DNA of 64,000 nt from an uncultured Allomuricauda sp. (GTDB lineage Bacteria > Bacteroidota > Bacteroidia > Flavobacteriales > Flavobacteriaceae). The notes under the pieces were generated by a model. That model saw only the letters and a program-made list of their open reading frames with translations, was not told where the DNA came from and did no database searches. Positions 5,558-24,611 of the stretch are shown here, in pieces. The translations under genes and the position numbers were made by a program. Each line of letters starts with the position of its first letter. The first letter of the stretch is position 1. Location: positions 496,001-560,000 of the forward strand of contig NZ_CANMPQ010000002.1 in assembly GCF_947499695.1 (NCBI RefSeq). The letters run 5' to 3'.

Positions 5558-7819
5558 ATGGAAAAAACTAGTTCATATAATCGAATTCTTGTGGCCGCTG
5601 CCGCAATTTTTCTACTTGCGGTCACCTATTCCGAAGCTCAGGTGCTTAACAAACCTGAAGCTGCTGACAACCCCAACCTAGCAGGTAACTCTGCGTGGAC
5701 TGCGGCCTGTGCCTCAGATAGTTTCAATGAATATTTCGTAAACTTTACTTGGAACCCTCCGATGGTTGATTCCGATAACGAATTTGTTCTTGAGCTTTCC
5801 GATGCCAATGGGAATTTTGGTGCGCCTAGAGAGCTCGCCAGATTAGGTGACAAAAATGCAACTTTTGATTTTGAGTTTCAATTCGCGGTGCCAACGGATG
5901 TTCGCGGAGAAAGCTACAAAATGCGTGTTCGTAGCACAAGTCCAGCCAAAACAAGTCCCGCATCGGACGCCTATCCAATGCACTATGTTGACTATAGTTC
6001 TCCTTTGTTAATAAGCGAGGATGCTAGCGGTACAATTCCACCAGGAGGAGAAATTCAGCTTTGTGGGGGTGCATCCATAGTTCTTTCCCCACATAACATT
6101 CCAAATGCTAACACTTATCAATACAATTGGTATAGAAGTGGTACGCTTTTAGTTGAAAAAACAGAACAAATTACAGTATCAACCCCAGGTATGTATTATG
6201 TAGAACTAGATTACGGGTCCGTATGTTCAGGTTCGGCAAACACCCTTTCAAATACTATTGAGGTAACTACAGGTACAAGCCAAGGCATCGCAATCAATGG
6301 TTCAGCAGATATCGGACTTTGTGCCGGTGATGCCCACACTTTAGAAGCAAACATCAGCGGTTCTGGACTTACCTATACTTGGTATAAAGACGGAGCTATC
6401 GTTGCTGGCCCAACCTTAGAGGCCCATACTTATAATGTGAATACCAGCTCTTCGGGGTTTGAAGGTGATTATGAAGTTGAAGTTGACGGACCTTCTGCTT
6501 GTTTGGAGCGTTCTTCATCTATTACCATAAGAAACTTAGGTGATTTCACGGTAACGAGAGAAAATGATGCAAACATTGTTTTGCTACCCTCTCAAACTAA
6601 AACTTTAACGGTTTCAACATCAGCAACCACACCCACATATCAATGGTACAAGGATGGCGTTGCTATTTCAGGTGAAACCAATAGCACCGTTATAATAAAT
6701 GAGACTGGCGTATACCATGCCACAGTTACTGAAACAGGAGGAGGATGTTCAGGTGCTCCTATAGATTCTGAAAATACAACAGTTGTTTCTCCAGATTCTT
6801 TTGAATTCGTTATCGCATATGCCGGAGCTTATGCTTCATGTCAAAATTCAGATGCAACCATTAGCCTTTCTGCTATCAATGCAGTTGGGGGGTCCGGTGC
6901 AAGAACAGATGTTACCTCCGATTTAGAATCTTCTTTTTCATACCAATGGTTACATGATGGATCCACCGTATCCGGTGAGACCTCTAAAACAATAACAATA
7001 TCAGATTTCCAAAATAATGGGTCCTATACATTAGAGGGTACATTGAATACGTTCAATGCATCTTCAAACGATTTGCCTATTTCTTTGGTTACCAACCTAT
7101 CCTTAAATATTACCTCTAACGGAACCGTATTATGTGAAGGAGCAGATCCGATTGTTTTCAATAGCTCGGAAAGCCTGACCGGTGAAACTTTTGAGTGGAC
7201 CAGAGACGGCGTAACCATAGATACATCATCAGAAACAATCAATGCTGCTGAAACCGGTGTTTACCAATTAACAATAACAACTCATGATTGTCCTGTTGTT
7301 TCCAATGAAGTAACTATTAATGCCTTTGATGAATCCTTACTGGTTTTAGACCAACCCGAGGATTTGATTATCATCGAAGGTGAAACTGAAACGGTAACGG
7401 CAAGTGGAGCTGAATCCTATGAATGGTTTGATGCAAACAATACGCTTTTAGGCACTCTAGATTCATATGATTTCCAAACAGAAGGACAGTATCTACTGGT
7501 AGCCAATTTTGGTAATTGTACCCTGAACAGGGTAGTTACAGTTTCCTACAGAGACAACTTTGCAATACCTAATGTTATTACCGTAAATGGTGATGGCATC
7601 AACGATTTGTGGATTCTTCCAAATACATATTCTCGAAAAGATGATGTGTTGGTTACTATATATGACGAAAGAGGTAAAGAAATCTTTAGTCAATCCAACT
7701 ACGAGAATAACTGGCCAGAATCAACAACATTATTTAATAAACAAAGTATGGTTTTCTACTATACCGTAGCAAGGAGCGGTGAAAACCTAAAACAAGGAAC
7801 CATAACGGTCATCAGATAG
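5558..7819 (+). CDS. sprC: SprC-like gliding protein: Ig-like repeats and type-B T9SS sorting domain
   Basis: Secreted surface protein of 753 residues. An N-terminal signal peptide ends near residue 27 (YSEAQ). About six Ig-like modules follow, each marked by an aromatic/Trp strand such as YNWYRSG, YTWYKDG, YQWYKDG, YQWLHDG or FEWTRDG (near residues 190, 273, 362, 464, 547), then a weaker YEWFDANN near 622. Residues about 665-753 are a CHU_C / gliding-motility-associated C-terminal domain with NGDGINDLW and a terminal TITVIR strand, the type-B signal for the type IX secretion system. It is the first gene of a four-gene operon and sits 5 bases before sprD. The name follows position and synteny with Flavobacterium johnsoniae sprCDBF; the exact role of SprC is not known. 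Confidence 0.8.
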   Translation: MEKTSSYNRILVAAAAIFLLAVTYSEAQVLNKPEAADNPNLAGNSAWTAACASDSFNEYFVNFTWNPPMVDSDNEFVLELSDANGNFGAPRELARLGDKNATFDFEFQFAVPTDVRGESYKMRVRSTSPAKTSPASDAYPMHYVDYSSPLLISEDASGTIPPGGEIQLCGGASIVLSPHNIPNANTYQYNWYRSGTLLVEKTEQITVSTPGMYYVELDYGSVCSGSANTLSNTIEVTTGTSQGIAINGSADIGLCAGDAHTLEANISGSGLTYTWYKDGAIVAGPTLEAHTYNVNTSSSGFEGDYEVEVDGPSACLERSSSITIRNLGDFTVTRENDANIVLLPSQTKTLTVSTSATTPTYQWYKDGVAISGETNSTVIINETGVYHATVTETGGGCSGAPIDSENTTVVSPDSFEFVIAYAGAYASCQNSDATISLSAINAVGGSGARTDVTSDLESSFSYQWLHDGSTVSGETSKTITISDFQNNGSYTLEGTLNTFNASSNDLPISLVTNLSLNITSNGTVLCEGADPIVFNSSESLTGETFEWTRDGVTIDTSSETINAAETGVYQLTITTHDCPVVSNEVTINAFDESLLVLDQPEDLIIIEGETETVTASGAESYEWFDANNTLLGTLDSYDFQTEGQYLLVANFGNCTLNRVVTVSYRDNFAIPNVITVNGDGINDLWILPNTYSRKDDVLVTIYDERGKEIFSQSNYENNWPESTTLFNKQSMVFYYTVARSGENLKQGTITVIR

Positions 7820-7824
7820 CCATA

Positions 7825-9897
7825 ATGCAAACAAACAAACCTCAACTCTTACTACTAATCATTCTTATGCTTGCCTTTACCGGGGTAAAGGGTCAGGAAG
7901 AGAATCCCTTTGTCGCATATAATGTCCCCTCTCAAAACTTATTAAAGTTTAATAGGTTTTTGATTAACCCTACATTTTCAACCGTTCGGGAAGACAAGTC
8001 CTACATCAATCTCTTTCATAGAAACCAGTCGGTATCTTTTGATGACAACAATCAGGTCTATTTTCTTAGTTATAGCGGTAGAGTAGGTGATCGTAGTGGG
8101 GTCGGTATGAGTCTGTTTACTAACCGAGAAGGTTTGTTTAATAACTTCGGGGTGCACGCAAATTATGCATATGGTGTGCGTTTGAGTCCAAAAAGTAATT
8201 TCACATTCGGAGCCAACTTTTCATACTATCAAAGTGCATTTAACCAAAGTCGGGCAAACACCGTAGATATTGATCCCTTCTTAAATACTTTGGAAAGTAG
8301 TTCCCTTGTCACTTTTCAACCTGGATTCAATCTTTCTTTTGGCAATTTTGATATCGGTGGATTCGCGGAAAATCTATTCGATTACAACCTAAAAACCAGT
8401 GAATCGGTAACCGATTTTACTGAAAAAACATTCTCCGGTCATTTACAATATACCCATCAGTTTGAAAACGCTGCAGGCCTTCTAGAACAAGCAAGGTTAA
8501 TGCCTCTAGCGAGAGTGCGCAAACGTGGTGAGGAGGATATTACTTTGGGCGGGAACCTCATTTTGGACCTTCCAAAACTAGGATGGTTGCAAGCCGGATA
8601 TGATGATTTTTATGGTGCTTCTGCCGGACTGGGTTTTAACCTCAACAAGAGTCTTTCAATTGGTTATACCGTTGAGAAGGGATTGTCGAACAGTTTTGAA
8701 AACTTTGGGTTGAGTCACGAAGTATCTCTTGCCTACTCTTTCACTCCTAATCTTACCGAAGATAGGGTGCTTTTAGAGGACGATTTTGAAGATTTGGTAC
8801 AATCGGATTCAATTCCACAGGAAAACTTAACGCTCTCGGAAAAGGATTTAGAAATCCAGAGGTTACAGAACAAACTGGCCGAAAATGATGCTATTCTTGA
8901 CGAACTTTTATTACGTCAAGATTCTATAGAAAGCACGCGCAAGCAGGACTTAGAAAGACGTTTCGAAACGGTAATGAAAATGGTTAAACGCGAAACCAGG
9001 GGGGAAATGCCACAACTTGAAGAAAAAGCTAAAGAAATGTATTTCGCCAATGCTGACACCATGGACGTTATTACCAAACGCACAACACAACCTTTGGCTA
9101 ATCATGGATTGTCCAACACTACGGCTGCAAAGAAGGTTATTCGATTGGACAACAACAGTACGGCCGTTACCAAAACATCTTCCGTTAAACGAGATAAAAT
9201 CACACGAAGGGAAAAAAGAAATACAAAAAGAAGGTTTCGATCATACTCCATTCCAAATGTGGAAAGCGGTCATTATCTAATCGCCAATGTTTTTAAAAAC
9301 CCAAACAATGCTACCGCATTTTTGGACAAGTTACAGACCCAGGGCATTGATGGCGGTTTTTTCATCAACCCAAAAAATGGACTCAATTATGTGTACTTAA
9401 AGGGTTATCAAAACAAAAAAGAAGCGATTAATGCTTACCACACCAAACTTGATGGTTCTTATAGTGGTGATGCATGGGTCATGAATGTCAATGGCATTGA
9501 CACCAATAGCTCAGGGGGTCAACTACTTGTAGCTGTAAACAACAAAGAAAAATCTAAATATGAAGACAATGTGCTTCATAAAAATATTAATCCATCCAAA
9601 GGAAACCTTTCCCAAGTTTCCTATTCAACCTACAAAATAAATGGACTGGGTTCTGGCTTTTACATTATTGCCAACGTATTCAAAAATGCTTCAAACGCTA
9701 AGCGTTTTGTTAAAGATTTGAATGCCAAAGGACTGAATGCGAGCTATTTCATAAATCCAGAAAACAACTACAGGTATGTGTATTTAAAAAAGCACCAAAC
9801 CTGGAACAATGCACTAACCTCATACTATTCCAAACTAAACGCCTCGTATGACGACGAAATGTGGATCATGCGGGTGAAACCAAACTCCAATAGTTAA
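7825..9897 (+). CDS. sprD: SprD-like protein: PorP/SprF domain, coiled coil and two SPOR-like repeats
   Basis: 690-residue envelope protein. A signal peptide ends near GVKGQ (residue 24). Residues about 25-310 are a PorP/SprF-type domain (LINPTFS near the start, many alternating beta strands), the family that displays type-B T9SS cargo at the outer membrane. A charged coiled coil follows (about 330-400), then a basic linker. The C-terminus holds two homologous modules at about 474-555 and 603-685, each with the pattern Y.I....SG.Y.IANVFKN..NA and ...YVYLK..Q, which look like SPOR/DUF peptidoglycan-binding repeats. That suggests a tether from outer membrane to cell wall (inference). It lies between sprC (5 bases) and sprB (2 bases), so the three are surely cotranscribed. 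Confidence 0.82.
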   Translation: MQTNKPQLLLLIILMLAFTGVKGQEENPFVAYNVPSQNLLKFNRFLINPTFSTVREDKSYINLFHRNQSVSFDDNNQVYFLSYSGRVGDRSGVGMSLFTNREGLFNNFGVHANYAYGVRLSPKSNFTFGANFSYYQSAFNQSRANTVDIDPFLNTLESSSLVTFQPGFNLSFGNFDIGGFAENLFDYNLKTSESVTDFTEKTFSGHLQYTHQFENAAGLLEQARLMPLARVRKRGEEDITLGGNLILDLPKLGWLQAGYDDFYGASAGLGFNLNKSLSIGYTVEKGLSNSFENFGLSHEVSLAYSFTPNLTEDRVLLEDDFEDLVQSDSIPQENLTLSEKDLEIQRLQNKLAENDAILDELLLRQDSIESTRKQDLERRFETVMKMVKRETRGEMPQLEEKAKEMYFANADTMDVITKRTTQPLANHGLSNTTAAKKVIRLDNNSTAVTKTSSVKRDKITRREKRNTKRRFRSYSIPNVESGHYLIANVFKNPNNATAFLDKLQTQGIDGGFFINPKNGLNYVYLKGYQNKKEAINAYHTKLDGSYSGDAWVMNVNGIDTNSSGGQLLVAVNNKEKSKYEDNVLHKNINPSKGNLSQVSYSTYKINGLGSGFYIIANVFKNASNAKRFVKDLNAKGLNASYFINPENNYRYVYLKKHQTWNNALTSYYSKLNASYDDEMWIMRVKPNSNS

Positions 9898-9899
9898 AA

Positions 9900-12800
9900 A
9901 TGACCAATCACTTTCTTAAAACTGTAATATGCCTTTTAGGCATCTGGTTTATTGGCTTAAAGGGGCAAGCCCAGGAAGTGCCTTTTACACCAAGGCTTTC
10001 AGATAATGGCAACACCTACCTTAATATAAAAGGGGACTATACTTTTCTCTCCAATAGTGTAATGAACAGTGTCTCAAACGGACACGATGTGAATACACCA
10101 TACAATGGGAATGGAAGTAACAATAGTCTTCACGTAGAATATGTGGATATCGATTCAGATCCCACAACATTCAACTCTAGTAGTTCAACCCTCTCATTAC
10201 CATCTTGTTCCCAAATCTATTGGGCAGGACTGTACTGGGCTGGTAACTACGATGTTGAACGAGATGGAGATCATAGAAGTCGTTATGAAAGTGGTTATAC
10301 CGATGACCCAAATCATTATGATGTTACCCAGGTTAAACTGAGAGTTCCTGGCAGCGCAACTTATATAGACCTTCAAGCAGATACTGCCGCCGATCCCGTT
10401 GGAGAAGAAGATGATGTTATCGTAGACGGATATAATATTTTACCAAACGACCCATACGTATGTTATAAGAATGTAACAAACATCTTAGCCGGATTAGCAG
10501 ATCCCACAGGAGATTATTTTGTGGGTAATGTCAGAGGAACTAGAGGTGCCACTACTTATGGTGTTGCCGGTTGGACCTTGGTTGTTATCTATGAAAACCC
10601 AACACTGCCTGGAAAGTACATTTCTGTTTTTGATGGTTATGAGGGTATCACCACACAATCTGGTAATAGCACTGCTGATATTACGGTTTCAGGATTTAAT
10701 ACCATTCCCGTTGGACCCGTAAATGCACGTATCGGAGTAAGCACATTGGAGGGTGAAACTTCTTTGTCAGGAGATACTTTTGGTATCGTTTCTAACAGTA
10801 GTTCAACATTTACAGCTATTTCGGATTCAGCGAATCCAAGCAATAATTTTTTCAATTCAACCATTAGTGAAGATGGCGCCAATGTCACTTCCAGAAACAT
10901 AAACAGTACCAATGCAATTGGTTTCGATTCAGATGTTTTTGACCTGAATAATCCAAGCAATAGTATTATTGATAATGGCGACACCAGTGCAACTCTAAGA
11001 CTAGGAACCAGCGGAGACTGGTTTGCTTCTTTCCTTGTAACATTTGGCGTAGAAATTATTGAGCCTGACATCGTTTTAGAAAAAAAGGTGGAAGACATTG
11101 GTGGTAATGATATCACTGGGCTTGGCGTTAATTTAGGACAGGTATTAGATTACGTACTCTCATTTGTCAATACTGGTAATGATGATGCTACGAACTACAC
11201 GATTCGAGACGTTCTTCCAATAAACGTTACTTTGGATGAAACGGTAATGACCTTACCTCCTGGAGTAACCTATACCTATACTCCGGCCACACGTGAAGTG
11301 GTATTTGACATCCCGGATAACCTTGTTGAAGAAGGAGATCCAATATCAGAAATACGTATTCGAGTGCAAGTCGCACAGAACTGTTTCGATTTTATTGACG
11401 CGTGTACCGATATTATCCAAAACCTTGCATATTCAACGTACGAAGGTAGCATTAACGCGAATCAAATTAGTGATGACCCCAGTGTTTCTGACTTTGATAA
11501 TTGCGGTTTTACCACTCCAGGTGCAACCAACTTTCTGTTAGATGACCTTGATAGTTGTGATTTTTCAAGAACCGTACAGCTTTGTGGAGATAATGTGGTC
11601 TTAGATGCTGGTGACAATTTCGATTCTTATATCTGGTATTTGGATAATAATGGCAACTCAGTCATTGATGCTGGTGATACCGTTTTAAATGATGGAGATC
11701 CAGATGCTGACCCTAGTACCTTATTGGTAACGGATACCGGGATTTACATTGTAGACAAAATAGTTGCCGATCCTTGTAAAGGGTTCCAAGAAATCATCAC
11801 AGTTGAACTTTTTGGGATAACACAATCCAATCCGATTACAGCATTGATCAATGACACTTCGAATACTGTGGAAGGCGAAATAGTGACCTGCCCCAATGAT
11901 GGTAGTGAGCTTCCGCAAATCTTTTTGTGCGGACTGAACGATACGGAATTGGTTCAAATAAATATTCCTGATGCCAACAGCATTGTTTGGGAGCAATTGG
12001 ATGAAACCAGTTGTACTGCCGCAACCCAAGATTGCGCGAATACAGACAACTCCTGTACATGGAATACCGTTGGTACAGGTGGTGATTTCTTAGCCTCAGA
12101 TGCTGGCCAATATCGGGTGGTGATCAATTATTTAAATGGATGTTTTAGTCGTTTTTACTTCAACATTTTCAAGAACCCATTAGACCCTCAATACACTTCA
12201 AGGGATATCATTTGTTCAAGCGATGGGAATATCACCATTACCAATATGCCATTGGATTACGAGTATAGGTTGATTGACCAAGCAACTGGAAACGAGCTTG
12301 TTGGATACAACTCAAATCCAAGTTTTGACATTACAAATAACGGCGCATATACCGTAGAAATGAGACAACAAGGCGTTGTTGACGGGTGTATTTTTGTGCT
12401 GGATAATATTGGAATCCTTACCCGTGATTTTCAAGTTGATGTTGTCCCTTCAGATACCGATTGTAACGGTCTTGGGGAGATTGCCATCTCAGTGCTAAAT
12501 GTAGAGCCACAATATTATTATGAAATATCACAGGGAGGAACTACTGTTGACACTTTTGGACCCTCTTCAGATAACAACTATACTTTTGAAAATTTGAATG
12601 ATGGTGTGTATGATGTTGATGTTTCAACTGATGATGGTTGTATTTATACAGAACAGGTAACCATAAATGATTTAACAGATTTAGACCTTAATGCCAGAGT
12701 TTCTCAGCATATTACCTGTAGAGAGGGTAATATTCAGATGGAATCGACTGGAGGACAAACTCCACACACCTATGCAATTTGGTCTTTTGTTGATGATGGA

Positions 12801-15800
12801 GGAACAACGGTTATTTCATATCCAACCGTAGGTGATATACCAGCAAGTGAATATCAAACTAGTGTAATTTTTGATATTCTCGACCCAGGAGATTACACCT
12901 TTGTGGTGGTTGACAGAAATAACTGTAGCGCCATTTCCAATACGGTTACAATCTTTTTTGAACCATCTATTGATTATACAACGGCATCCACGGATGAAAC
13001 CTGTTTCGGAGCTTCGGACGGAACTATTTCCTTCAATCTAATAAGCACCAATGGTTATCAAGTTGAGTTCTTTTTAATTGATTCAACAGGAACGGAAATA
13101 GCAACTAACACTTCAGGGTCATTTACGAACCTACCGCAGGGAGATTATACTGTACGTGTAAACCAAAGGAAGGGAAGTGCTTCGTGCGATTTTTTTGAAA
13201 ACTATAACATCAGTGGCCCAACCTCAGGAATTAGTGGAGACGCCGCATTAATTCAGGACTATACCTGTTTGCAAAATGGTATTATTGAAGCTCAAAATGT
13301 AGCCGGTGGTACAGCCCCATATGAGTATAGTATTGATGGTGTCAATTTCGTTAATGGAGTGGGGGCCGAGACCTTCTCGAACCTTACAAATGGAACTTTC
13401 AACATCACTATTAGAGATGCCAACAACTGTACATTCGTAACCAACGGAATAACTTTTGATCCATTAAACCCTCCTTCAGATTTAACTTTTACTGCAACTA
13501 CACCAAACTGTCCAGCATTAACATCCGATGTTACTGCCACCGTTGTAGATGGAAATACTCCTTTCGTATTTGAAATTGTAGCTCCAGCTCCAATCGCGGC
13601 TACTTCAACAACCGGAGGTTCTGCGGATTTTGATGGTCTAGCTCCAGGCACCTATACATTTAGGGTGACCGATGACAAAGGATGTACTTATGATGAATCC
13701 TTTACAATAAATCCAGTTTCACAAATCAATGTGTCTGGACAATTAATAAGCAATATTACGTGTTTAGGTGACACCGATGGTGAAATCTCATTTACTGTCG
13801 CCGATTTCAATACAGATTACGATTACGCAGTAACAGGTCCAGCTAATTTCAATGGTAGCAACCAAACAGGAACCACAATTCCTCTGACAGGTTTAGCTGA
13901 TGGAACCTATACCATTGTAGTAACAGATAACTTAACAAACTGTACGGCCACAACCGATGTTACCGTAAATGCTCCAGCTGCGGCGTTAACTTTAAGTGCG
14001 GCAGAGACACAACCGACTTGTATCTCTGATGGTAGCGTAACATTGACCTCAAGCGGAGGATGGGGAGGCAACTCGTTCACCCTGACCAATCCGGATACAA
14101 CAATTTTTGGCACCAATAATACAGGAGCTTTCACTGGATTAACCCAGGCAGGAACATATAATGCATCGGTTACTGATGCAAATGGTTGTGTGGTAAACGC
14201 TTCCTTTACATTGAATGCTGCTATTCCACCCGTATTGGCCATTGTTCCCAATAACACATGTTATGATGATGCTGTTGGCTTAACCTTGACAGCTAATATA
14301 ACATCAGGTGGTGACGGAAATTATCAGTATAGCCTTAATGGTGGTGCTTTTGGAACAAACAACGTATTTGCCGGATTAACTTCAGGCACGTACACCATTG
14401 ATGTTAGGGATGGAAACAATTGTACAGATTCTGCGTCCATAACAATTAATCCTGAGTTGAGCGTAATCGCATCAGCTCCAAATATTACAGCTTGTACTAC
14501 AAGCACAGATGTAAATATTACCGCAGCTGGTGGTGACGGAAGTTATGTTTATGCCATTGTTGCTGACGGTGTTACTCCAAACCCTGGTGATTTTGCCGTA
14601 ACCAACCCCGTAAACATAACGGGTGCCGGCGACTACGATGTTTACGTAAGGGACAATAGTGGTAATGCTGGATATTGCGAAGCAAATTATGATTTAACGA
14701 TTGCTCAAGATGCACCTTTGGCAATAACCTCTGGATTTACGCCTGTAAGTTGTTTTGGGGGTTCTGATGGAACAATCACATTAAGTGCTTCAGGAGGTGA
14801 GGCTCCATATTTGTTCAGCATTGATAATGGAACGAACTATCAAGTTTCGGGAAGCTTCGTAAATCTCGCTGCGGGAACATACAACCTAAGAATACAAGAC
14901 GCCAACAATTGCGAAACAGCTGATACTATTACGGTCACCCAACCGAATCAATTGGCAGCCGAAGCGCAACAGACCCAAAACTATACATGCCTGCAATTGG
15001 GTGAAATTACCGTTGGTAGTGTAACGCCTACTTCCGGTGGTTCTGGTGACTATCAATATAGCATAAATGGAGGTCCTTGGACTCCTTCAACAACCGGAGG
15101 AACCGTATTTGCCAATTTGACCGATGGAACTTATTCTATTCAGGTTAGGGATGCCAATGAAATTGGGTGTACTATCACCCTGCCAAATGTAGTTATTGCT
15201 CCGCTTCCTACCGAACCTACATTAAGCACTTCTGTCGCATACAATTGTGATGGAACCGGAAATATCACGGTGCTTCCAAACGACCCTACATATACATATA
15301 GTTTGAATGGGGCTGCCGCTCAGGCCAGCAATGTATTTAACAATGTTGCTGTTGGAACACATACAATTGATGTTAATTATGGAAGTGATTGTGTAACGCA
15401 AACCACAGTTACAGTAACCGCAGGAAATGCATTTGGGTCATCCATAACAGCCTTCTCAGACATTTCATGTAACGCCGGAACTGATGGGTCGATATCTTTT
15501 GAAGTAGATAATTTTGATACTGTCAATGGTTTTGAATACCAAGTAAATGGAGGTGGTTATTCAGCTCCTCAAACAGCAAGTCCCATTACAGTTTCTGGTT
15601 TGGCTGCAGGAAACTATACGATCGAAGTTCGTGATGTTTTGGATAACACATGTATCATCACCCTCAACCAAACACTGTCAGAGCCAGTAGTTATTGCTGC
15701 TTCTGCTTCAATAACCGATGTCCTCACCTGTACTAATGGAGGTGCAACAATAACCGCCTCAGCAACTGGAGGAACCCCTGCTTATGAGTATCAATTGGAA

Positions 15801-18800
15801 GACGGCGTTGGAGGAATTATTGCTGGCTTTGACTATGCTACAAATGGAAACAACACCATTTTCACAGGGCTTGCAGCTGGTGATTATATTGTTAGGGTAA
15901 GAGATACTAATCTTTGTGAGGATCCAATCGATACTGCATTGACAGTTGCTTCCCCAACACCGATAACATTTACGTCCACACCAACTGCTTGTTACAGTGG
16001 AAACAATGATGGGACAATTACAGTGAACGTTACTGCTGGTAATGGAGATTATCAATTTAGCCTAAATGGAGGGCCGTGGATTACGCCATCTCCTGCCAAT
16101 GCAACAACACATACTTTCTCTGGATTGATTGCTGGAAATTATACAATCAACGTTAGGGACGGTTTTGGTTGTACTGGTACACTTCAAAACCCAAGCATTA
16201 CAGATGCATTAGTTGCAACTGTAGATGTTGTAGACATAAGCACTTGTGCTGATGGTTCTATTACGGTTACCGCATCTGGCGGTGTTCCAAACTTGGAGTA
16301 CGCATTTGTTCCCACAACAACAAGTCCAACAGGATTCTTCTCAACCACAAATACATTTGCAGTTACCACTGGAAACGATGGTGATTATGATGTTTACGTT
16401 AGGGATAATTCAGCTACAGTGCCTTTCTGTGAGTTCATGGAAACCGTAACGGTAAATCCAGCAACTCCCTTGACTGTTACGAACACCCCGACGGACCCTT
16501 TATGTCATGATGGGACGGGTTCTATTTTAGTAGATATTACTTCCGGAATAACCCCATATACCATTCAAATTGTTGATTTGGACAATGCTGGCGCCGGAAA
16601 TCAAACTGATACAAACGTTCTAGTTTCTAACAGAACTTATTTCAATCTAATGCCGGGTGATTACACCATAAACGTTACTGACGCTACTGGTTGTACTGTT
16701 TCAGAAACACCGGTAAATATTGCGAATCCAGATGAGTTAACTGCCACAATTGTAGGCGCTACACCTATGAATTGCACCGGCTTACCTAGTGACTTCGGGT
16801 TTGATTTTACAGCTTATCCAACCACTTTAGGCACTATTCAGTTTAGTGCGGACGGTGGAACAACATGGGTTGTTAATACAACTCCTGGAACAACAGATGA
16901 ATTTAGGGGATACAATTCAGGTGATATTGTAAATCCTTCTATGAGAATTGTAGATGGGTCAAATAATACCGTTTGTCAAACAGATTTTCCTCCGTTTATC
17001 ATTCCGTATCCATTGGATGATTTAGACATTACTATTTTACCAATTGTCGTAAACTGTAACGAATTACAGGTAACTGTAAGAGGGCAAAACGGAACTGGTC
17101 CTTACGAATATGCTTTTTCTGATGATCCAGCCAACTTTGACCCAGCTACGGCCACATGGACAGCCCCATTACCTTTAGGAACAACCCACACATTTTTAGG
17201 TTTAGTTCCCGGTAGAAGCTATACATTCTATGTTAGGGATTTTATAGGGTGTGTTAGGGGTAGTAGTGTTAATGTCAATGATATAATTACCGTTCCTTTG
17301 GATATTACTTCAGCTATTACACCTTCCTGTGATGGTGCCAGTAACGGAAGTATCACCTATACTGTAACAGATACTCAAGCGCCATTTGGACCACAGTTTA
17401 GATGGGAAGTTTTTGATATGAGCACTGGAGTTCCCGTTTCTGTAACCAGTAGTGGTGGAAATGTTGCATTTTCTTCTCCTCAAAATATTACTGTACCTGG
17501 TTTAGGTGCTGGAAACTACTTTATCGAAGTAGTTGAGGTTGACGGTGGTGGAGTTGACAGTTGTATCGGAGCTACTGAAAACGAATTGTTGGAAGAATTG
17601 GATCCATTGACCGGAACACCTGTCGTGCTTCAAAACATAAGTTGTGATACTCCGGGATTGATTCAGGTTCAAAGCCCATTTGGAGGTGGTGGAACCTATA
17701 CGTATACCGTAACTGGTCCTGCTCCTTTTGTGACAATTTCTTCCACATCGGATAATCCAATTGAGATTCCAGCTAACTCACCTGCTGGAAACTACCATGT
17801 TACTATGGAAGATCAATATAGTTGCTCATCTCCTCTTGGAAATGTGGCATTGACATTGACTCCAAATCCAACAATTGATGCCATCGCTATAGATAACTGT
17901 TCTGATCCAGCCACAGTATCCATAACAGCTTCAAGTGGTGCTGCACAGATATTTTACTCATTGGATGGTGGTACGACATATTTGGACAACGGTGGTGTTT
18001 TCAACAATATCTCTGCTGGTACTTATAATGTATCAATCTTGGATAGTAATGGTTGTTCTGATACCAGCACAATTACCGTTCATCCTGTTTTACAGGCCAC
18101 TGCTACATTGACCAAATTATTAGATTGTTCAGTTAGTCCAGATGCAGAAATTACCATTGACATTCTTGCTGGTTCTGGAGACAATCTTGGTTTTGCAGGA
18201 AGTTATGATTACGAAATCGCTGATGGAACCGGAACTGTCGTAGCTAGAACTGTATTGCCAAGTGACCCATTTGTGTTCAGTACAATTACGCCTGAAGATT
18301 ATACAATTACCGTTTATGATAACAATACAACTGGTCCCGAGTGTTCCAGAGTATTCAATGTTACTGTAGACCCTGCGCTAACACCTGCGTTTAGTGTAAC
18401 ATCGAACACCGATGTCACTTGTAATGGTGATGATGATGGAACCATCGATGTAATGGCCACGGATAATGGTATTGGTCCATATACTTTTGAAATCATTTCA
18501 GGCCCCGGAAGTTCTGCTACATTCCCAATTGCCCCTTCATCCAACAATGCTACAACAGCATCATTTACTGGCCTTGAAGGTTCAGCAGCCGGAATTACAT
18601 ATACTATAGAAGTAACTGCAGCGAACGGCTGTACATCAACACAAACACAGACGATTTCCCAACCGGATATTTTGTCTAGCATAAACTCTAGTGTTGTTGA
18701 ATTTGGATGTGCTTCTGGAAATAACATGGACAACGCAACCATAACAATCGATGCGGCTTCAATAGTTGGTGGAAGCGGAGTTTATACCATTTATGAGTTC

Positions 18801-21800
18801 ATTAATGATCAAGGTACTCCGGCAACTGCAGATGATGTTGTTGAACAGTCTGGACCGAACAATGTCTACATAGAAACGAACATGGCTGGTGGAAGTTACA
18901 TTATCAATGTATATGACAGTAATGGTTGTGTTGGCACAGTAACTGAGACAATTGCCGCTTTTGATGAGTTATTATCAACCGGTATCGCTATTGACGCAGC
19001 CGCCACTTGTGTGTCTGGAGAAAACATTACAATAACAGCTACCGGGTCTATTACGAATTCGACTACTACACCTGCCAATTATGAGTTCAGGTTGTTGCCT
19101 GCTGGTACTTTCCAAGCTTCTGGAAGCTTCACGGGTCTGGCGGTAGGAACCCATAATTTTGAGGCAAGGAACACAGTTACTGGATGTATTATTTCCACAT
19201 CTCATATTGTTGCTGACCCAGAGGTGTTAAACCTTAATGTGGCTGGTACCACAAACATCACATGTTTTGGTGATACAAATGGAAGTGTAGATTTGAATCT
19301 TGTGGATGCTGGAAGCATTACCTATGCAAGTGCAGTTACCTATACACTATACTATGATGTAAACAATACTCCAAGTAACTTGGCTGATGATACAACGTCG
19401 ATTGGTGGAGATTCCGATGGTAGTTTTACTATAAGCGGACTTGCTGCTGGAAACTATTTTGTGGAAGTGGTGGATACGAACCCTCCTGGTTCAGCCTGTA
19501 CATATACTCAGGCATTTACAATTAACGGTCCTAGCGTTGGTATTTCTGCAAACACACAGGTTACTGATGTTACTTGTGTACTAAATGATGGGGTTATTGA
19601 AATCATTAATGCCGCTGGTGGATGGGGTGGATATACCTACTTTGTAGATTTAGCTTCAAACCCTGCACCAACATTTCCTGCTAGTTACCAAGCATCTCCA
19701 CAATTCACTGGACTTGCTGGTGGAGCGGGAGCTGGTACAGACTATCAAGTTTGGGTAGCTGACACCAATGGATGTGAGTTCCAATTGCCAAATGTTAATC
19801 TTGTTGACCCAACGGCAATTACAGCAACCTTGCAAATCAACCAAGAAAATTGTACTGCCCTTCAAGGAGAAATTGAAGTTACAGGCACCGCTGGAGGTCA
19901 AGGAAGCAACTATACGTATCAACTGATTCGTGGAGGAAGTAATGTTGGTTCTCCGCAAACCAGTCCTGTTTTCTCAGGATTGGGTGCTGGTTCTTACGAA
20001 GTGTTGATTGCTGATCAATGGTCTTGTTCAACCACTATCGGTCCTGTTGTGTTATTGGATGAAATGGTTGCGACAGCTACTGTTGTAAAACCAATAGATT
20101 GTACTGTTGATCCCGGAGGTCATATAACTATAAACGTAACAGGAGGTTCAGCCAATCTTACCTATGATGCGTTGTTTCCAGATGCGGTAACAACAGCCAA
20201 TAATACTACAGGTGTGTTCACTGGATTAACACAACCAGGAACATACACCTTTACCATAACAGATGGAAATACGGTAACACCATGTACCGTGGTAATTACC
20301 CAAGACTTGGATGATACGGTCGACCCAGTAATCACTGGCGTTGTTGAAGACCCTGTAAATTGTTTTGGTGGATCCGATGGAAGTCTTACGGTTCAATTGG
20401 ATGCTGCTACCGCAGTCAACCCGGTTTACACCTACGAGCTTTACGAAATTTCCAATTTAGCGGTTCCTTATAGACCCGCTCAAACGAGCCCTGTTTTTGA
20501 TAATCTTCCAGCAGGAGATTATAGGGCCAGGGTAATCTCGGCCAGGTCATGTGATGACTTCTTTGATCAGACCGTGACCGAGCCCGTAGCGCTAGCTGTT
20601 TCAGCAAGTGCAACACCTTTTGCATGTAATCCTAATAATACGGTTAACACCTCAACCATAACTGTAACCGCTTCCGATGGAACTGGACCATATTTATATA
20701 GTATTGACAATATCAACTTCCAAACATCAAATGTTTTTGATGTTCCAGATACTGGTGCTGTTCAAAACATCACAGTTTACGTAACAGATGGTAATTCATG
20801 TGCTGAAACCGACACTGTAGTAATTCAACCTATAAATACATTCACCGCAGCGGTAACTCAAAATACAGCTATTAGTTGTGCTAATCCTGAAGATGTTTTG
20901 ATTACTGTAACTGATAATGGAAACCCAGGCAACACATATACTTTTGAGTTATTGCCAATAGGAAATCCAGCCGGAAGTATTACTGCAACACCGACTAATG
21001 TTACTGCAACAGCAGACTTAACGGCTCCTGGAAGCTATACTTTTAGAGTAACAGATAATACTACTGGTTGTTATGTTGATACTGCGCCTTATGATATTGC
21101 TCCTTACGATTTGATTGAAGTGGTTGCTACGCCAACTGCACCTGCAATTTGTTTTGGAGATACAAATGGTGCTTTAGAAATTAACGTTACAGGATACACA
21201 GGTACGTACGATTATCAGGTTTTTGATGATTCCAACAACCCCGTAGGTCCTTTGGTGAATACAGATACAAGTGTAAACCCACGTCCAATTAGCGGACTTT
21301 CAGGAGGTAACTATTATGTGCGAGTTACACAAACAGGAAATCCTTTGTGTGTGGAAGATTCGAACACCATAACAATCGCATCTCCAGATATGGCTTTAAC
21401 CGCAACTCCTATTGAGGTTGCCAACGTAAGCTGTGCCAATAATTTAGGTGAAATAGAGGTTTCTCCATCAGGAGGTTTTACCCCTTATAACGTTCAATTG
21501 ACCAATACAACAACTGGCCAGATATATAATGCCACTAATATTGTGAGCTTCGTTTTCCAAGGACTTTCTGCTGGCACCTTTGATGTGCAAATCACGGACG
21601 ATGCTGGGTGTACAATCAATGAGCCTATTGTTCTTGTTCAACCACTGCCTATAACGGCCGACATTTCTGCAACACCTACCTCTCTAGTTTGTTATGGGGA
21701 TACAAATGCAACTGTATCCGCAATCAATGTGCTCAACGGACAAGGGGTATATCAATATCAGCTAAATGTATATGATGCAACCGGAACAACTATTGCGTTC

Positions 21801-23642
21801 ACATCCGGTGCTCAGTCTAGTCCTGATTTTACCAATCAAGGAGCCGGAATTTACAGCATAACCGTTTCAGATGGTTGGGGATGTGATGTGGAAACCGTGC
21901 AGGTGACCATCACTGAACCAAATGACGTGCAGGCCAATCTTATTCAATTAACACAATTGACTTGTACTACAAACGCACAAATTGAGCTTTCCGCTACCGG
22001 TGGAACAGGACCTTATGAATATAGTGTTGATGGTATTGCCTATACGCCCTTGGCTGGTGGAAACACACATACTTTTACAGTTCCAGCTGGACCTTATCAG
22101 TACTACGTAAGGGATGCGTTTGGTTGTGATGCACTAATATCCAATCAGGTAACTGTTGACCCAATTATTCCTTTGGATGTTATCATTGACGATAGTGCCG
22201 CTACCATTAATTGTACAGGTGAAGCCTCTGCAACAATTTATGCTGAAGCTGTTGGAGGATTAGGTGGTTATTCTTACGAATTATTTACAGATCCCGGTTT
22301 GGCCACTTCTGTTGCAGGACCTCAAAACGATGGAGAATTCAACGGATTGATTGCGGGAACTTACTACGTACAGGTTATCAGTATGGATTGTCAAGTGGTG
22401 AGTTCAGCAATAGACATAATTGATCCTGTTCCGTTACAAATCGACAGACAGGAATCTACGGATGTTACTTGTGCTGGATTAGAAGATGGAACCATTACTG
22501 TTGAAGTTTCTGGAGGTACTGGAGAAATTCTTTATGCCATCACTCCAAACCTGAACCAGTTTGATACGGAAAATGTCTTTACAGATCTAGCTCCGGGAAT
22601 TTATGATGTAATTGCTCAAGATAGAAATGGTTGTTTCGAAACCTTCCAGTTTGATATTCAGCAACCAGCGGCTATTCAAGCACAAGCAATCAACGTATTG
22701 CATGAGGTTTGTTTTGGTAGCGCTGATGGTTCTTTTGAATTGGATATTACCGGAGGTACACCACCATACTCATCTGCTTTGAACTCAAATGCAGATTCAG
22801 ATTTTGTTCAAGATCAGGTGTTATTCCAAAACCTTGCTGCTGGAACACATGTGGCATTCATTAGAGATGCTCAAGGTTGTGAGACCAATGTAATTGTGGA
22901 AATCAATCCTGGTGTAAATCTTACCGCTACGGTAACACCTATCTATGAATGTGATGGAGACCTACCTACAAACCGTTTGGATATTGTATTTGAAGATCAA
23001 TCTGTAGTTGCAGATGTGCTTTATGGTTTGGATACCACAGATCCAGCATTAATGCAGTTAACCTCGGATTTTGCCAATATTGCATCTGGAGATCATAGCT
23101 TGACCATTCTACATTCTAATGGTTGTGCCAACACGATTGATTTTAACATTATTGGATTTGAACCATTGGCCTTGGTGTTGGAAAATAGCAACATTAACGA
23201 GATAACCGCCAATGTAACCGGAGGATTGGAAGATTATACCATTTTCTTCGGCGATGTTAACAACGGAACCGATAATACTTACATTATTAACAGAACCGAC
23301 ACTTATACTGTAAGGGTGATTGATCAGAACGGTTGTGAAGTAATGGCAGAAATATTTATGGAGTTCATCGATATTGAAGTTCCGCCTTTCTTTACACCAG
23401 ATGGTGATGGAATGAATGACCGATGGTTGCCTGACAATCTTGAAGCCTTCCCTAATGCACTAATGATCATATTTGATCGTTATGGTAGAGAGCTCTATCG
23501 CATGGGATATGGCGATGCTGGTTGGGATGGACTCTACAACAACAGTGAGCTACCTACAGGGGATTACTGGTACATCATAAAGCTCCAAGGCGAAAATGAT
23601 GACAGAGAACTAGTAGGGCATTTTACCCTATATCGACAATGA
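9900..23642 (+). CDS. sprB: SprB-type giant cell-surface gliding adhesin
   Basis: 4580-residue secreted adhesin, the mobile filament that rotary gliding motors move along the cell. A signal peptide ends near QAQ (residue 25). Residues about 30-385 form a beta-rich N-terminal region (GLYWAG, GVAGWTLVVIYE). A DUF11-type module lies at about 390-515 (EPDIVLEKKV, GDPISEIRIRV). From about residue 780 to 4440 there are roughly 43 SprB repeats with the pattern TC.G..DG.I....GG..PY.Y and a closing GTY.V.V.D.NGC; each usually has two cysteines. Residues about 4490-4580 are a type-B T9SS sorting domain (FTPDGDGMNDRW, DGLYNNSELPTGDYWY). The F. johnsoniae protein is longer (about 6500 residues). The start is 2 bases after the sprD stop. 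Five seven-repeat blocks are listed separately. Confidence 0.93.
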   Translation: MTNHFLKTVICLLGIWFIGLKGQAQEVPFTPRLSDNGNTYLNIKGDYTFLSNSVMNSVSNGHDVNTPYNGNGSNNSLHVEYVDIDSDPTTFNSSSSTLSLPSCSQIYWAGLYWAGNYDVERDGDHRSRYESGYTDDPNHYDVTQVKLRVPGSATYIDLQADTAADPVGEEDDVIVDGYNILPNDPYVCYKNVTNILAGLADPTGDYFVGNVRGTRGATTYGVAGWTLVVIYENPTLPGKYISVFDGYEGITTQSGNSTADITVSGFNTIPVGPVNARIGVSTLEGETSLSGDTFGIVSNSSSTFTAISDSANPSNNFFNSTISEDGANVTSRNINSTNAIGFDSDVFDLNNPSNSIIDNGDTSATLRLGTSGDWFASFLVTFGVEIIEPDIVLEKKVEDIGGNDITGLGVNLGQVLDYVLSFVNTGNDDATNYTIRDVLPINVTLDETVMTLPPGVTYTYTPATREVVFDIPDNLVEEGDPISEIRIRVQVAQNCFDFIDACTDIIQNLAYSTYEGSINANQISDDPSVSDFDNCGFTTPGATNFLLDDLDSCDFSRTVQLCGDNVVLDAGDNFDSYIWYLDNNGNSVIDAGDTVLNDGDPDADPSTLLVTDTGIYIVDKIVADPCKGFQEIITVELFGITQSNPITALINDTSNTVEGEIVTCPNDGSELPQIFLCGLNDTELVQINIPDANSIVWEQLDETSCTAATQDCANTDNSCTWNTVGTGGDFLASDAGQYRVVINYLNGCFSRFYFNIFKNPLDPQYTSRDIICSSDGNITITNMPLDYEYRLIDQATGNELVGYNSNPSFDITNNGAYTVEMRQQGVVDGCIFVLDNIGILTRDFQVDVVPSDTDCNGLGEIAISVLNVEPQYYYEISQGGTTVDTFGPSSDNNYTFENLNDGVYDVDVSTDDGCIYTEQVTINDLTDLDLNARVSQHITCREGNIQMESTGGQTPHTYAIWSFVDDGGTTVISYPTVGDIPASEYQTSVIFDILDPGDYTFVVVDRNNCSAISNTVTIFFEPSIDYTTASTDETCFGASDGTISFNLISTNGYQVEFFLIDSTGTEIATNTSGSFTNLPQGDYTVRVNQRKGSASCDFFENYNISGPTSGISGDAALIQDYTCLQNGIIEAQNVAGGTAPYEYSIDGVNFVNGVGAETFSNLTNGTFNITIRDANNCTFVTNGITFDPLNPPSDLTFTATTPNCPALTSDVTATVVDGNTPFVFEIVAPAPIAATSTTGGSADFDGLAPGTYTFRVTDDKGCTYDESFTINPVSQINVSGQLISNITCLGDTDGEISFTVADFNTDYDYAVTGPANFNGSNQTGTTIPLTGLADGTYTIVVTDNLTNCTATTDVTVNAPAAALTLSAAETQPTCISDGSVTLTSSGGWGGNSFTLTNPDTTIFGTNNTGAFTGLTQAGTYNASVTDANGCVVNASFTLNAAIPPVLAIVPNNTCYDDAVGLTLTANITSGGDGNYQYSLNGGAFGTNNVFAGLTSGTYTIDVRDGNNCTDSASITINPELSVIASAPNITACTTSTDVNITAAGGDGSYVYAIVADGVTPNPGDFAVTNPVNITGAGDYDVYVRDNSGNAGYCEANYDLTIAQDAPLAITSGFTPVSCFGGSDGTITLSASGGEAPYLFSIDNGTNYQVSGSFVNLAAGTYNLRIQDANNCETADTITVTQPNQLAAEAQQTQNYTCLQLGEITVGSVTPTSGGSGDYQYSINGGPWTPSTTGGTVFANLTDGTYSIQVRDANEIGCTITLPNVVIAPLPTEPTLSTSVAYNCDGTGNITVLPNDPTYTYSLNGAAAQASNVFNNVAVGTHTIDVNYGSDCVTQTTVTVTAGNAFGSSITAFSDISCNAGTDGSISFEVDNFDTVNGFEYQVNGGGYSAPQTASPITVSGLAAGNYTIEVRDVLDNTCIITLNQTLSEPVVIAASASITDVLTCTNGGATITASATGGTPAYEYQLEDGVGGIIAGFDYATNGNNTIFTGLAAGDYIVRVRDTNLCEDPIDTALTVASPTPITFTSTPTACYSGNNDGTITVNVTAGNGDYQFSLNGGPWITPSPANATTHTFSGLIAGNYTINVRDGFGCTGTLQNPSITDALVATVDVVDISTCADGSITVTASGGVPNLEYAFVPTTTSPTGFFSTTNTFAVTTGNDGDYDVYVRDNSATVPFCEFMETVTVNPATPLTVTNTPTDPLCHDGTGSILVDITSGITPYTIQIVDLDNAGAGNQTDTNVLVSNRTYFNLMPGDYTINVTDATGCTVSETPVNIANPDELTATIVGATPMNCTGLPSDFGFDFTAYPTTLGTIQFSADGGTTWVVNTTPGTTDEFRGYNSGDIVNPSMRIVDGSNNTVCQTDFPPFIIPYPLDDLDITILPIVVNCNELQVTVRGQNGTGPYEYAFSDDPANFDPATATWTAPLPLGTTHTFLGLVPGRSYTFYVRDFIGCVRGSSVNVNDIITVPLDITSAITPSCDGASNGSITYTVTDTQAPFGPQFRWEVFDMSTGVPVSVTSSGGNVAFSSPQNITVPGLGAGNYFIEVVEVDGGGVDSCIGATENELLEELDPLTGTPVVLQNISCDTPGLIQVQSPFGGGGTYTYTVTGPAPFVTISSTSDNPIEIPANSPAGNYHVTMEDQYSCSSPLGNVALTLTPNPTIDAIAIDNCSDPATVSITASSGAAQIFYSLDGGTTYLDNGGVFNNISAGTYNVSILDSNGCSDTSTITVHPVLQATATLTKLLDCSVSPDAEITIDILAGSGDNLGFAGSYDYEIADGTGTVVARTVLPSDPFVFSTITPEDYTITVYDNNTTGPECSRVFNVTVDPALTPAFSVTSNTDVTCNGDDDGTIDVMATDNGIGPYTFEIISGPGSSATFPIAPSSNNATTASFTGLEGSAAGITYTIEVTAANGCTSTQTQTISQPDILSSINSSVVEFGCASGNNMDNATITIDAASIVGGSGVYTIYEFINDQGTPATADDVVEQSGPNNVYIETNMAGGSYIINVYDSNGCVGTVTETIAAFDELLSTGIAIDAAATCVSGENITITATGSITNSTTTPANYEFRLLPAGTFQASGSFTGLAVGTHNFEARNTVTGCIISTSHIVADPEVLNLNVAGTTNITCFGDTNGSVDLNLVDAGSITYASAVTYTLYYDVNNTPSNLADDTTSIGGDSDGSFTISGLAAGNYFVEVVDTNPPGSACTYTQAFTINGPSVGISANTQVTDVTCVLNDGVIEIINAAGGWGGYTYFVDLASNPAPTFPASYQASPQFTGLAGGAGAGTDYQVWVADTNGCEFQLPNVNLVDPTAITATLQINQENCTALQGEIEVTGTAGGQGSNYTYQLIRGGSNVGSPQTSPVFSGLGAGSYEVLIADQWSCSTTIGPVVLLDEMVATATVVKPIDCTVDPGGHITINVTGGSANLTYDALFPDAVTTANNTTGVFTGLTQPGTYTFTITDGNTVTPCTVVITQDLDDTVDPVITGVVEDPVNCFGGSDGSLTVQLDAATAVNPVYTYELYEISNLAVPYRPAQTSPVFDNLPAGDYRARVISARSCDDFFDQTVTEPVALAVSASATPFACNPNNTVNTSTITVTASDGTGPYLYSIDNINFQTSNVFDVPDTGAVQNITVYVTDGNSCAETDTVVIQPINTFTAAVTQNTAISCANPEDVLITVTDNGNPGNTYTFELLPIGNPAGSITATPTNVTATADLTAPGSYTFRVTDNTTGCYVDTAPYDIAPYDLIEVVATPTAPAICFGDTNGALEINVTGYTGTYDYQVFDDSNNPVGPLVNTDTSVNPRPISGLSGGNYYVRVTQTGNPLCVEDSNTITIASPDMALTATPIEVANVSCANNLGEIEVSPSGGFTPYNVQLTNTTTGQIYNATNIVSFVFQGLSAGTFDVQITDDAGCTINEPIVLVQPLPITADISATPTSLVCYGDTNATVSAINVLNGQGVYQYQLNVYDATGTTIAFTSGAQSSPDFTNQGAGIYSITVSDGWGCDVETVQVTITEPNDVQANLIQLTQLTCTTNAQIELSATGGTGPYEYSVDGIAYTPLAGGNTHTFTVPAGPYQYYVRDAFGCDALISNQVTVDPIIPLDVIIDDSAATINCTGEASATIYAEAVGGLGGYSYELFTDPGLATSVAGPQNDGEFNGLIAGTYYVQVISMDCQVVSSAIDIIDPVPLQIDRQESTDVTCAGLEDGTITVEVSGGTGEILYAITPNLNQFDTENVFTDLAPGIYDVIAQDRNGCFETFQFDIQQPAAIQAQAINVLHEVCFGSADGSFELDITGGTPPYSSALNSNADSDFVQDQVLFQNLAAGTHVAFIRDAQGCETNVIVEINPGVNLTATVTPIYECDGDLPTNRLDIVFEDQSVVADVLYGLDTTDPALMQLTSDFANIASGDHSLTILHSNGCANTIDFNIIGFEPLALVLENSNINEITANVTGGLEDYTIFFGDVNNGTDNTYIINRTDTYTVRVIDQNGCEVMAEIFMEFIDIEVPPFFTPDGDGMNDRWLPDNLEAFPNALMIIFDRYGRELYRMGYGDAGWDGLYNNSELPTGDYWYIIKLQGENDDRELVGHFTLYRQ
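13761..15467 (+). repeat. SprB seven-repeat block 1
   Basis: Codes for residues about 1288-1856. It starts at the Cys of ITCLGDTDGEISF and holds seven SprB repeats with lead motifs TCLGDTDG, TCISDG, TCYDDA, ACTTST, SCFGGSDG, TCLQLGE and NCDGTG. The fourth ends with DYDVYVRDNSGN...C. Confidence 0.75.
15468..17327 (+). repeat. SprB seven-repeat block 2
   Basis: Codes for residues about 1857-2476. Lead motifs are SCNAGTDG, TCTNGG, ACYSGNNDG, TCADGS, LCHDGTG, NCTGLP and NCNELQ. Repeats 1, 3 and 4 match those of block 1 far better than their own neighbours (SISFEVDNFD against EISFTVADFN; DYDVYVRDNSA against DYDVYVRDNSG). Confidence 0.75.
17328..19262 (+). repeat. SprB seven-repeat block 3
   Basis: Codes for residues about 2477-3121. 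Lead motifs are SCDGASNG, SCDTPG, NCSDPA, DCSVSPDA, TCNGDDDG, GCASGNN and TCVSGEN. It pairs best with block 4. Confidence 0.75.
19263..21149 (+). repeat. SprB seven-repeat block 4
   Basis: Codes for residues about 3122-3750. Lead motifs are TCFGDTNG, TCVLNDG, NCTALQG, DCTVDPGG, NCFGGSDG, ACNPNNT and SCANPED. Position-by-position matches to block 3 include GNYFVEVVDTN with GNYFIEVVEVD, and IDCTVDP with LDCSVSP. Confidence 0.75.
21150..22949 (+). repeat. SprB seven-repeat block 5
   Basis: Codes for residues about 3751-4350. Lead motifs are CFGDTNG, SCANNLG, CYGDTNA, TCTTNA, NCTGEA, TCAGLEDG and CFGSADG. Repeats 1-3 align with block 4; the last two look more like generic SprB repeats. About two further degenerate repeats then lead into the sorting domain. 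Confidence 0.65.
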
Positions 23643-23660
23643 TACTTAACCTATTGAACC

Positions 23661-24611
23661 ATGTTGAAAAAAAGTTGTTTCTTATTTTTTATGATGCTAT
23701 TGGCCCATGGAGCTAGGGCCCAGGAGCTTACCATACCACAGCTGTCCCAGTACATTGCTGATAATCCTTTTTTAATGTCCCCTACCTATGCTGGTATTGG
23801 GGATCATATTAAGGTTCGATTAAACGGGTTAACGCAATGGGTCGGTATCGAAGATGCTCCAGATACTCAAACATTGGCGGCAGATGCTCGAATTGGGAAT
23901 CGGTCAGGTCTCGGAATGCTCATGTACAATGATAGTAACGGGGAAACCAAGCAAAGAGGTGCAAGAGTTTCGTTTGCACACCATTTGACTCTTAATAGAT
24001 ATGATGATATTTTTCTTTCCTTCGGTATTTCCTATAACTTCAACCAGTTTAGGATTGATGTAGAAAATTTCACAGATTTTAATGGCCAATTACCCACTGA
24101 TGATAAGGCCACGACCAACCATAATTTTGATTTGGGTGTTCTATATCGTTATGATAAGTTTTACCTCAGTCTAAATGCTTCCAACATATTACCCAAAAAT
24201 CTAGAACAATTTAATCCTGTTTTTGAGCCAAACACGCTTCGAAACTATTATGCATACGCCGGGTATAGTATATCAAAAAGTAAGAACAGTAAGCTTGAAA
24301 TAGAACCTTCTGTATTTTTTCAATGGTTTGAAAGTGATGGAAGATCTGTAACAGATTTGAACGCAAAATTTCGGTTTCACGACTTTGAGGATTACTACTA
24401 CATCGGAGCAACTTATCGTTTTTTAAATGACCAGCTAGGTAAGCCCCTTTATATAGCTCCAATCGCCGGTCTAAAGAAAAGTAACTTCTACTTCGGATAT
24501 TCTTATCAGGTTATTACTAATGAAATCTTAGGTTATAGTACAGGAACCCATGTGCTCACCGTTGGGATGGACCTTTTCCAAGGTATTAGTAATTGTAGGT
24601 GTATGTATTAA
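23661..24611 (+). CDS. sprF: SprF: PorP/SprF-family T9SS outer-membrane protein
   Basis: 316-residue PorP/SprF-family protein. A signal peptide ends near RAQE (residue 21). It then has the family hallmark of an early NPFLMSPTYAG segment and alternating beta strands to the C-terminus, consistent with an outer-membrane barrel. In F. johnsoniae SprF is specifically needed to get SprB to the surface; the pairing here, 18 bases after the sprB stop, supports the same job. No terminator is seen between sprF and folB (39 bases), so some read-through is likely. Confidence 0.92.
   Translation: MLKKSCFLFFMMLLAHGARAQELTIPQLSQYIADNPFLMSPTYAGIGDHIKVRLNGLTQWVGIEDAPDTQTLAADARIGNRSGLGMLMYNDSNGETKQRGARVSFAHHLTLNRYDDIFLSFGISYNFNQFRIDVENFTDFNGQLPTDDKATTNHNFDLGVLYRYDKFYLSLNASNILPKNLEQFNPVFEPNTLRNYYAYAGYSISKSKNSKLEIEPSVFFQWFESDGRSVTDLNAKFRFHDFEDYYYIGATYRFLNDQLGKPLYIAPIAGLKKSNFYFGYSYQVITNEILGYSTGTHVLTVGMDLFQGISNCRCMY

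Follow-up and report, generated by a model that had tools for sequence, protein, structure and literature searches.

SprB-type gliding adhesins of the Flavobacteriaceae change in size as matched pairs, by equal blocks of repeat units on the two sides of a fixed centre, and we hold this rule to be very nearly certain. As its explanation we propose that SprB folds into an antiparallel hairpin, in which two arms of equal length would meet at a tip close to the centre of the array and the C-terminal stalk would be unpaired. We give this reading a probability of roughly 0.6. SprB itself is known; the matched-arm rule is, as far as we have seen, new.

The window analysed here, a 64,000-nucleotide stretch of DNA from an uncultured Allomuricauda sp., carries a sprB gene (positions 9900..23642, plus strand) coding for a 4580-residue gliding adhesin with matches to PF13573, PF13585 and TIGR04131. 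The SprB repeats (PF13573) are recognised in 24 stretches (E=8e-101), and residues 4492-4579 (23373..23636, plus strand; TIGR04131, E=2.9e-24) form the C-terminal sorting domain, of T9SS type B. An N-terminal region (residues 1-759; 9900..12176, plus strand) precedes an array of 43 SprB-type units (residues 760-4485; 12177..23354, plus strand), the first of which starts at residue 760; the units are ~86 residues each, and nearly all contain a pair of cysteines. The neighbouring genes are a sprC-like gene with Ig-like domains and a CHU_C sorting domain (5558..7819, plus strand), a sprD-like gene with PorP_SprF (PF11751) and SPOR domains (7825..9897, plus strand), both of which we take to deserve these names from their position, and sprF, of the PorP/SprF family (23661..24611, plus strand; PF11751). 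The title of a 2011 paper by Rhodes et al. describes sprC, sprD, sprB and sprF as one operon, presumably in the order found in the window. Like Flavobacterium johnsoniae SprB, which is an SprF-anchored T9SS type B substrate, the window protein combines PF13573 repeats, a sorting domain, sprC-/sprD-like and sprF neighbours and the same size class. The 4580-residue frame is a genuine SprB, for which family membership predicts surface movement and support of gliding. The same genome codes for one other large PF13573 protein (L039; G000:C1:200001-216000), of 2772 residues and 29 units, which lacks a long N-terminal region.

An earlier note on this DNA had described SprB as five superblocks of seven repeats each (units 6-40; 13761..22949, plus strand), and the underlying period is real. 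The block starts fall at Cys1288, 1857, 2477, 3122, 3751 and 4351, with seven units between successive starts. When 42 units were cut by their cysteines, all pairs aligned and unit means removed, repeat n proved closer to repeat n+7 than to its neighbours, as had been claimed (offset 7, z=5.4; offset 1, z=-0.3), with p=0.0002, the floor of the 5000 shuffles. Harmonics are seen at offsets 14 (z=2.4), 21 (z=1.7) and 28 (z=2.9), and among periods 2-14 (43 units) period 7 ranks first (z=6.7), followed by 14 (z=3.5). A residue dot plot of the unsegmented protein gives the same picture, offsets 550-634 being the densest (0.65 per 1000 windows, compared to 0.20 at 40-124). Chance and segmentation artefact are excluded as the source of the period by the shuffles and by this unsegmented plot. 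The phase is arbitrary; units 3 and 4, upstream of Cys1288, likewise match units 10 and 11.

Two finer claims stood in part. Blocks 1-2 and 3-4, which lie on one side and on the other side of the centre, respectively, pair best by residual alignment score (23.8 and 27.6) but not by plain mean identity (36% and 32%), which ranges from 30 to 39% over the block pairs and is highest for blocks 2-3; block 5 pairs weakly. The single repeats cluster only partly by slot, since the nearest neighbour shares the slot in only 15 of 35 units (shuffles: mean 4.1, maximum 16 in 10,000). Growth by whole seven-repeat modules is supported beyond the window protein, and recent, exact seven-unit tandem copies, up to 97-100% identical, are found in several lineages. 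The superblock count is where the earlier description fails: the five blocks are the wrong unit, and sizes change instead as matched pairs about a fixed centre near window units 19-20. The seven-unit module may be a mechanical unit.

The same offset test on the relatives gave a mixed result: at least ten of the 43-unit relatives score higher at offset 14 than at offset 7. Individual proteins are strongest at offset 4 (L048), 10 (L076) or 3 (L061), many 29-unit proteins have little or no signal at offset 7, and the 23-unit L069 has none (z=-0.4). For the paralogue L039, offset 3 is best (z=2.6), with z=1.8 at offset 7. After multiples of 7, offsets 3-4, 10-11, 17-18 and 24 are often next best, a pattern that resembles a half period of ~3.5 units. 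Many homologues also carry a non-SprB insert of ~190-220 residues inside unit 5 or unit 12, which are seven apart, or inside both (e.g., L085, residues 1184-1401); in L058 three such inserts occur (units 5, 9 and 12), and the window SprB has none.

The number of units per protein was assessed using the following approach: (i) With SprB residues 1-639 as query, 139 of the 199 family genomes proved to contain relatives; the loci comprised those with long open frames together with 80 named loci, a non-random sample which includes some close relatives or paralogues. (ii) The 217 array proteins were segmented with one repeat HMM plus a start model, and spurious leading matches were deleted manually, as was one false match within an inserted domain of L056. 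(iii) Removal of 20 incomplete proteins left 197, removal of 12 duplicates left 185, and three records cut by contig ends were excluded manually (L140, L142 and L192, with 19, 20 and 15 units; for L192 the cut was deduced), so that 182 unique complete proteins remained.

These 182 proteins fall into a few sizes, namely 23 units (30 proteins), 29 (55), 43 (62), 57 (17), 71 (5) and 85 (3), together with one protein each of 113, 127, 49, 32, 35, 41, 44, 46, 54 and 77 units. The unit number equals 1 modulo 14 in 144 of them (29, 43, 57, 71, 85, 113 and 127). Proteins of 23 units (29 less 6; 30 of 182) and 49 units (43 plus 6; one of 182) depart from this series, and in seven of the 182 the extra units lie near the anchored C-terminal end. 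The sizes 36, 50, 64, 78 and 92, which an unmatched seven-unit block would produce, occur in none of the 182.

Where the extra units lie was determined in a two-gap test in which gap sizes and positions were both free. It covered 147 related pairs of unequal size, formed by each protein with its two most similar other-size relatives above a similarity cut; proteins of 32, 35, 46 and 49 units fell outside its scope. An exactly equal split was best in 144 of the 147 pairs (3+3 in 55, 7+7 in 72, 10+10 in 15 and 14+14 in 2), with margins from >3000 down to 2 (L064 against the window protein), and a single gap was best in none; the pairs share relatedness and so do not amount to 147 independent trials. 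The remaining three pairs are comparisons of 23 with 43 units, split 17+3 or 3+17 with leads of 1, 35 and 0 over the next split. The matched changes include triplets as well as sevens. Compared to its 29-unit relative L065, the 23-unit L069 has lost units 6-8 and units 17-19, and the 49-unit L076 is set apart by 3+3 from 43-unit relatives and by 10+10 from 29-unit ones. In L047, units 9-15 and, separately, units 32-36 match the units seven further on with 97-100% identity, and L062 is similar. The two-gap test, together with the twin arrays described below, excludes single 14-unit duplications as a general rule, although a free domain alignment of L054 (29 units) with L053 (43 units) is contrary and places all 14 extra units in one gap; the two-gap test splits this pair 7+7 with a small margin (34).

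In the largest proteins the matched growth is recent enough to be seen within a single gene. The 113-unit protein (L243+L242; 10,676 residues) has an offset-7 identity of ~100% over units 15-42 and of 97-100% over units 60-88. Neighbouring copies in its N-terminal array are 99.9-100% identical in DNA (three comparisons), whereas the blocks of the N-terminal and C-terminal arrays are only 28-49% alike slot by slot, which means that two different blocks have been amplified to an equal extent. The 127-unit protein of genome G592 (C1:4084897-4118091), the largest SprB-type protein in the sample with 11,173 residues, shows recent spans at units 15-48 and 74-108. The F. johnsoniae-type SprB frame of genome G616 (6497 residues, 71 units) has them at units 10-29 and 36-57, and arrays in both halves also occur in the three 85-unit and four further 71-unit proteins. 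Among the proteins with at least three recent units (15 of 89), the numbers of such units in one half and in the other are strongly correlated (Pearson 0.96, Spearman 0.84, p=1e-4).

The position of the centre is indicated by a marker, unit 18 of the window SprB (residues 2280-2379; 16737..17036, plus strand), a conserved though divergent unit which gives a single strong match per protein and was recognised in 29 complete proteins. In the window SprB 18 units precede the marker and 24 follow it. The numbers before and after are (11,17) in eight proteins, (18,24) in 16, (21,27) in one and (25,31) in two, such that in 27 of the 29 the distance of the marker from the centre is preserved, with a constant difference of 6; in the remaining two proteins, at (11,20) and (18,27), three additional units are present near the C-terminal end. 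The eight proteins in which both halves contain recent runs put the mirror axis at an estimated 1.69 units beyond the marker (sd 0.44), which would place the putative hairpin tip of the window protein between units 19 and 20 (17283..17328, plus strand). A within-size shuffle attains this tightness in 11% of cases (0.11), so that mirror placement of the paired blocks is suggestive only. Several hundred tests for covariation of unit charge, length and composition at mirror positions yielded nothing firm; the best aromatic sum, one of these several hundred, was at 40, near the expected 39-40.

Amplification without a partner is found only near the C-terminal base. Such additions amount to 3 units (L104 and L103), 6 (L061) and 15 (L195), and, assuming a 29-unit core, to 12 and 48 (L272 and L265j) and 25 (L267), these three cores having been deduced from the location of the extra array and not from alignment. 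Units 32-44 of L267 are 13 near-identical copies of a single unit, near the base in the C-terminal half; this single-unit amplification contrasts with the seven-unit growth elsewhere. In the window SprB the counterpart of the C-terminal triplet amplified in some homologues would be units 39-41 (22428..23171, plus strand), the proposed unpaired stalk. With the axis at 19.7, units numbered 40 and above have no partner in the array, and this is roughly where free amplification occurs. The matching rule thus binds the arms and not the stalk, with repeats of the same kind and in the same family, and this provides a built-in control.

Since the lengths are equal about the centre, the simplest cause would be direct apposition of the two sides. 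In the proposed structure, the chain would run outward from its anchored C-terminal end along one arm of Ig-like units (units 20-38 in the window SprB; 17292..22430, plus strand), turn near the middle of the array at units 19-20 and return as a second, antiparallel arm of equal length (units 0-19, residues 760-2462; 12177..17285, plus strand), which would bring the N-terminal region close to the base. In the arm-arm arrangement seven units would constitute one repeat, for example, and this is a guess, a single turn of one arm about the other. Retention of a seven-unit (or three-unit) block would depend on an equally long block in the opposite arm, since all units beyond it would otherwise be left unpaired. 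The units just ahead of the sorting domain would form a single-stranded stalk to the anchor and be free to vary. That the matching reflects physical pairing of the arms is inferred, as are the turn, the location of the N terminus and the significance of the number seven. The complete version, an in-register twin-armed hairpin whose arms lengthen solely by matched seven- or three-domain blocks, with a free stalk, seven as one arm-arm repeat, a mid-protein tip and the N terminus at the cell surface, appears to us slightly less probable than the hairpin as such, and still somewhat better than even.

The dimensions of the filament can be compared with this proposal. The rise per Ig-like unit is 3.5-4 nm. 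At this value 71 units in file would measure ~250-285 nm, and arms of 35 units ~125-140 nm. Published accounts give the SprB filament, of ~6,500 residues, a length of ~150 nm (PMC4094633, PMC13104615), which suits 35 domains in file better than 71; alternatively, 71 domains could reach 150 nm by coiling. AlphaFold2 models of 13 central units (93 sequences, positioned according to how far they lie from the centre) and of 13 units of the C-terminal arm (89 sequences) had a pLDDT of 87.8 and 87.1 and a pTM of 0.56 and 0.36, respectively, a contrast which, as a single comparison of predicted models, fits a more fixed arrangement at the centre. Foldseek and VIA-align gave domain-level Ig/FnIII matches for the AlphaFold models.

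Equal arms could also arise in a loop or bow, with both ends of SprB at the cell surface, the middle as the distal tip and the arms unpaired; equality would then place the adhesive centre at the far point. Such an arrangement accounts for equal changes on either side of a conserved centre. A flexible, unpaired loop should, however, tolerate unequal arms, and by this argument the strict equality, triplets included, is difficult to account for unless the arms touch, for which reason we consider the loop unlikely.

We attach the same low weight to a parallel oligomer without a hairpin, in which a 14-unit helical phase would limit the length and a gain of seven units would be compensated by a gain of seven elsewhere. 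Its model is grappling hook protein A (GhpA) of Aureispira sp. CCB-QB1 (PDB 9flp and others), a T9SS-secreted giant array and the sole strong sequence relative with a solved structure; the two arrays are related by profile search (E=1.2e-77) and by Foldseek (E=1.2e-25). GhpA is described as a heptamer with a monomer that spans the filament (PMC13319060), which by analogy is a caution against the hairpin, and helical layer lines at 10.8, 17.0 and 8.5 nm are reported for SprB legs (PMC6791848). GhpA is a predation hook, unlike SprB, which is a gliding foot. Against the GhpA neck, Foldseek gives an rmsd of 108 A for the centre and a comparably large one, 124 A, for the arm control, and the comparison therefore does not discriminate. 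Proteins of 23 and 49 units violate a 14-unit phase, yet they suit matched triplets, and the C-terminal additions of 3, 6, 12, 15, 25 and 48 units (12, 25 and 48 presupposing the 29-unit core) would violate any phase rule. That no pair of the two-gap test prefers a single gap also argues against the oligomer, the free alignment of L054 with L053, which grouped 14 units, being the contrary case.

Neutral unequal crossing-over between blocks seven apart, with a symmetry that is ancestral and has been reshuffled among paralogues, would account for the steps of seven and for the high identity of neighbouring blocks. Two further observations are in its favour. The minimum number of size changes on the trees is 18 for the last nine units and 20 for the first five (86 proteins each; L039, L061, L101-L104 and L114 left out), and 29 for the N-terminal region (92 proteins; L039 left out), and such differences between parts of the gene are what an exchange of parts predicts. 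In a looser test, recent offset-7 runs of at least three units were found in 17 proteins, in both halves of eight and in one half of nine, so that recent identity is frequently confined to one half in proteins with balanced counts; in the correlation analysis, L040 and L056 likewise have matched counts and high identity in one half only. Local homogenisation may explain the one-sided cases. The disagreement between the N-terminal and array-end trees suggests exchange of parts between paralogous genes within one genome, and some of the size changes on the trees may be such exchanges and not new paired duplications; the number of independent paired events is uncertain for this reason. Nevertheless, neutral crossing-over gives no reason for the absence of 36, 50, 64 and 78 units among the 182 proteins, and leaves unexplained that different blocks of the two halves were recently amplified to similar copy numbers; we regard it as less probable again than the loop or the oligomer. 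An artefact of segmentation or assembly, conceivable where repeats are hard to assemble and a census rests on one HMM and a start model, is very improbable, given that the window unit count agrees with the cysteine spacing, that the same few counts recur across 182 proteins from many assemblies, and that the 113-unit, 127-unit and F. johnsoniae-type genes lie in one-contig assemblies (G427, G592 and G616).

Excerpts of the accounts of F. johnsoniae SprB, the published length of which is 6497 residues (PMC9870892), describe a huge filament of ~150 nm and make no mention of seven-unit blocks, matched arms or a hairpin. Among the matches listed from open-licence PMC papers (title and start of the abstract), none describes these features in SprB, in agreement with the remark in the earlier note that the seven-domain module was not known to have been described. 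Like SprB, GhlA of Litorilinea aerophila is a giant single-chain array that serves as a cell-surface filament; unlike SprB, it consists of 49 DUF11 domains, belongs to another domain family and phylum, and is pictured as beads on a string.

In the partial literature considered here, the architecture of the SprB foot is an open question, while its anchor and motor are being worked out. The rule, with equal changes in the two halves and free change at the base, predicts a fold and would put the adhesive tip in mid-chain, and it indicates which truncations should still function. If the hairpin is true, it would account for the 150-nm length of a protein of 6497 residues, and SprB would be a rare case in which the record of duplications by itself indicates how a giant protein is built.
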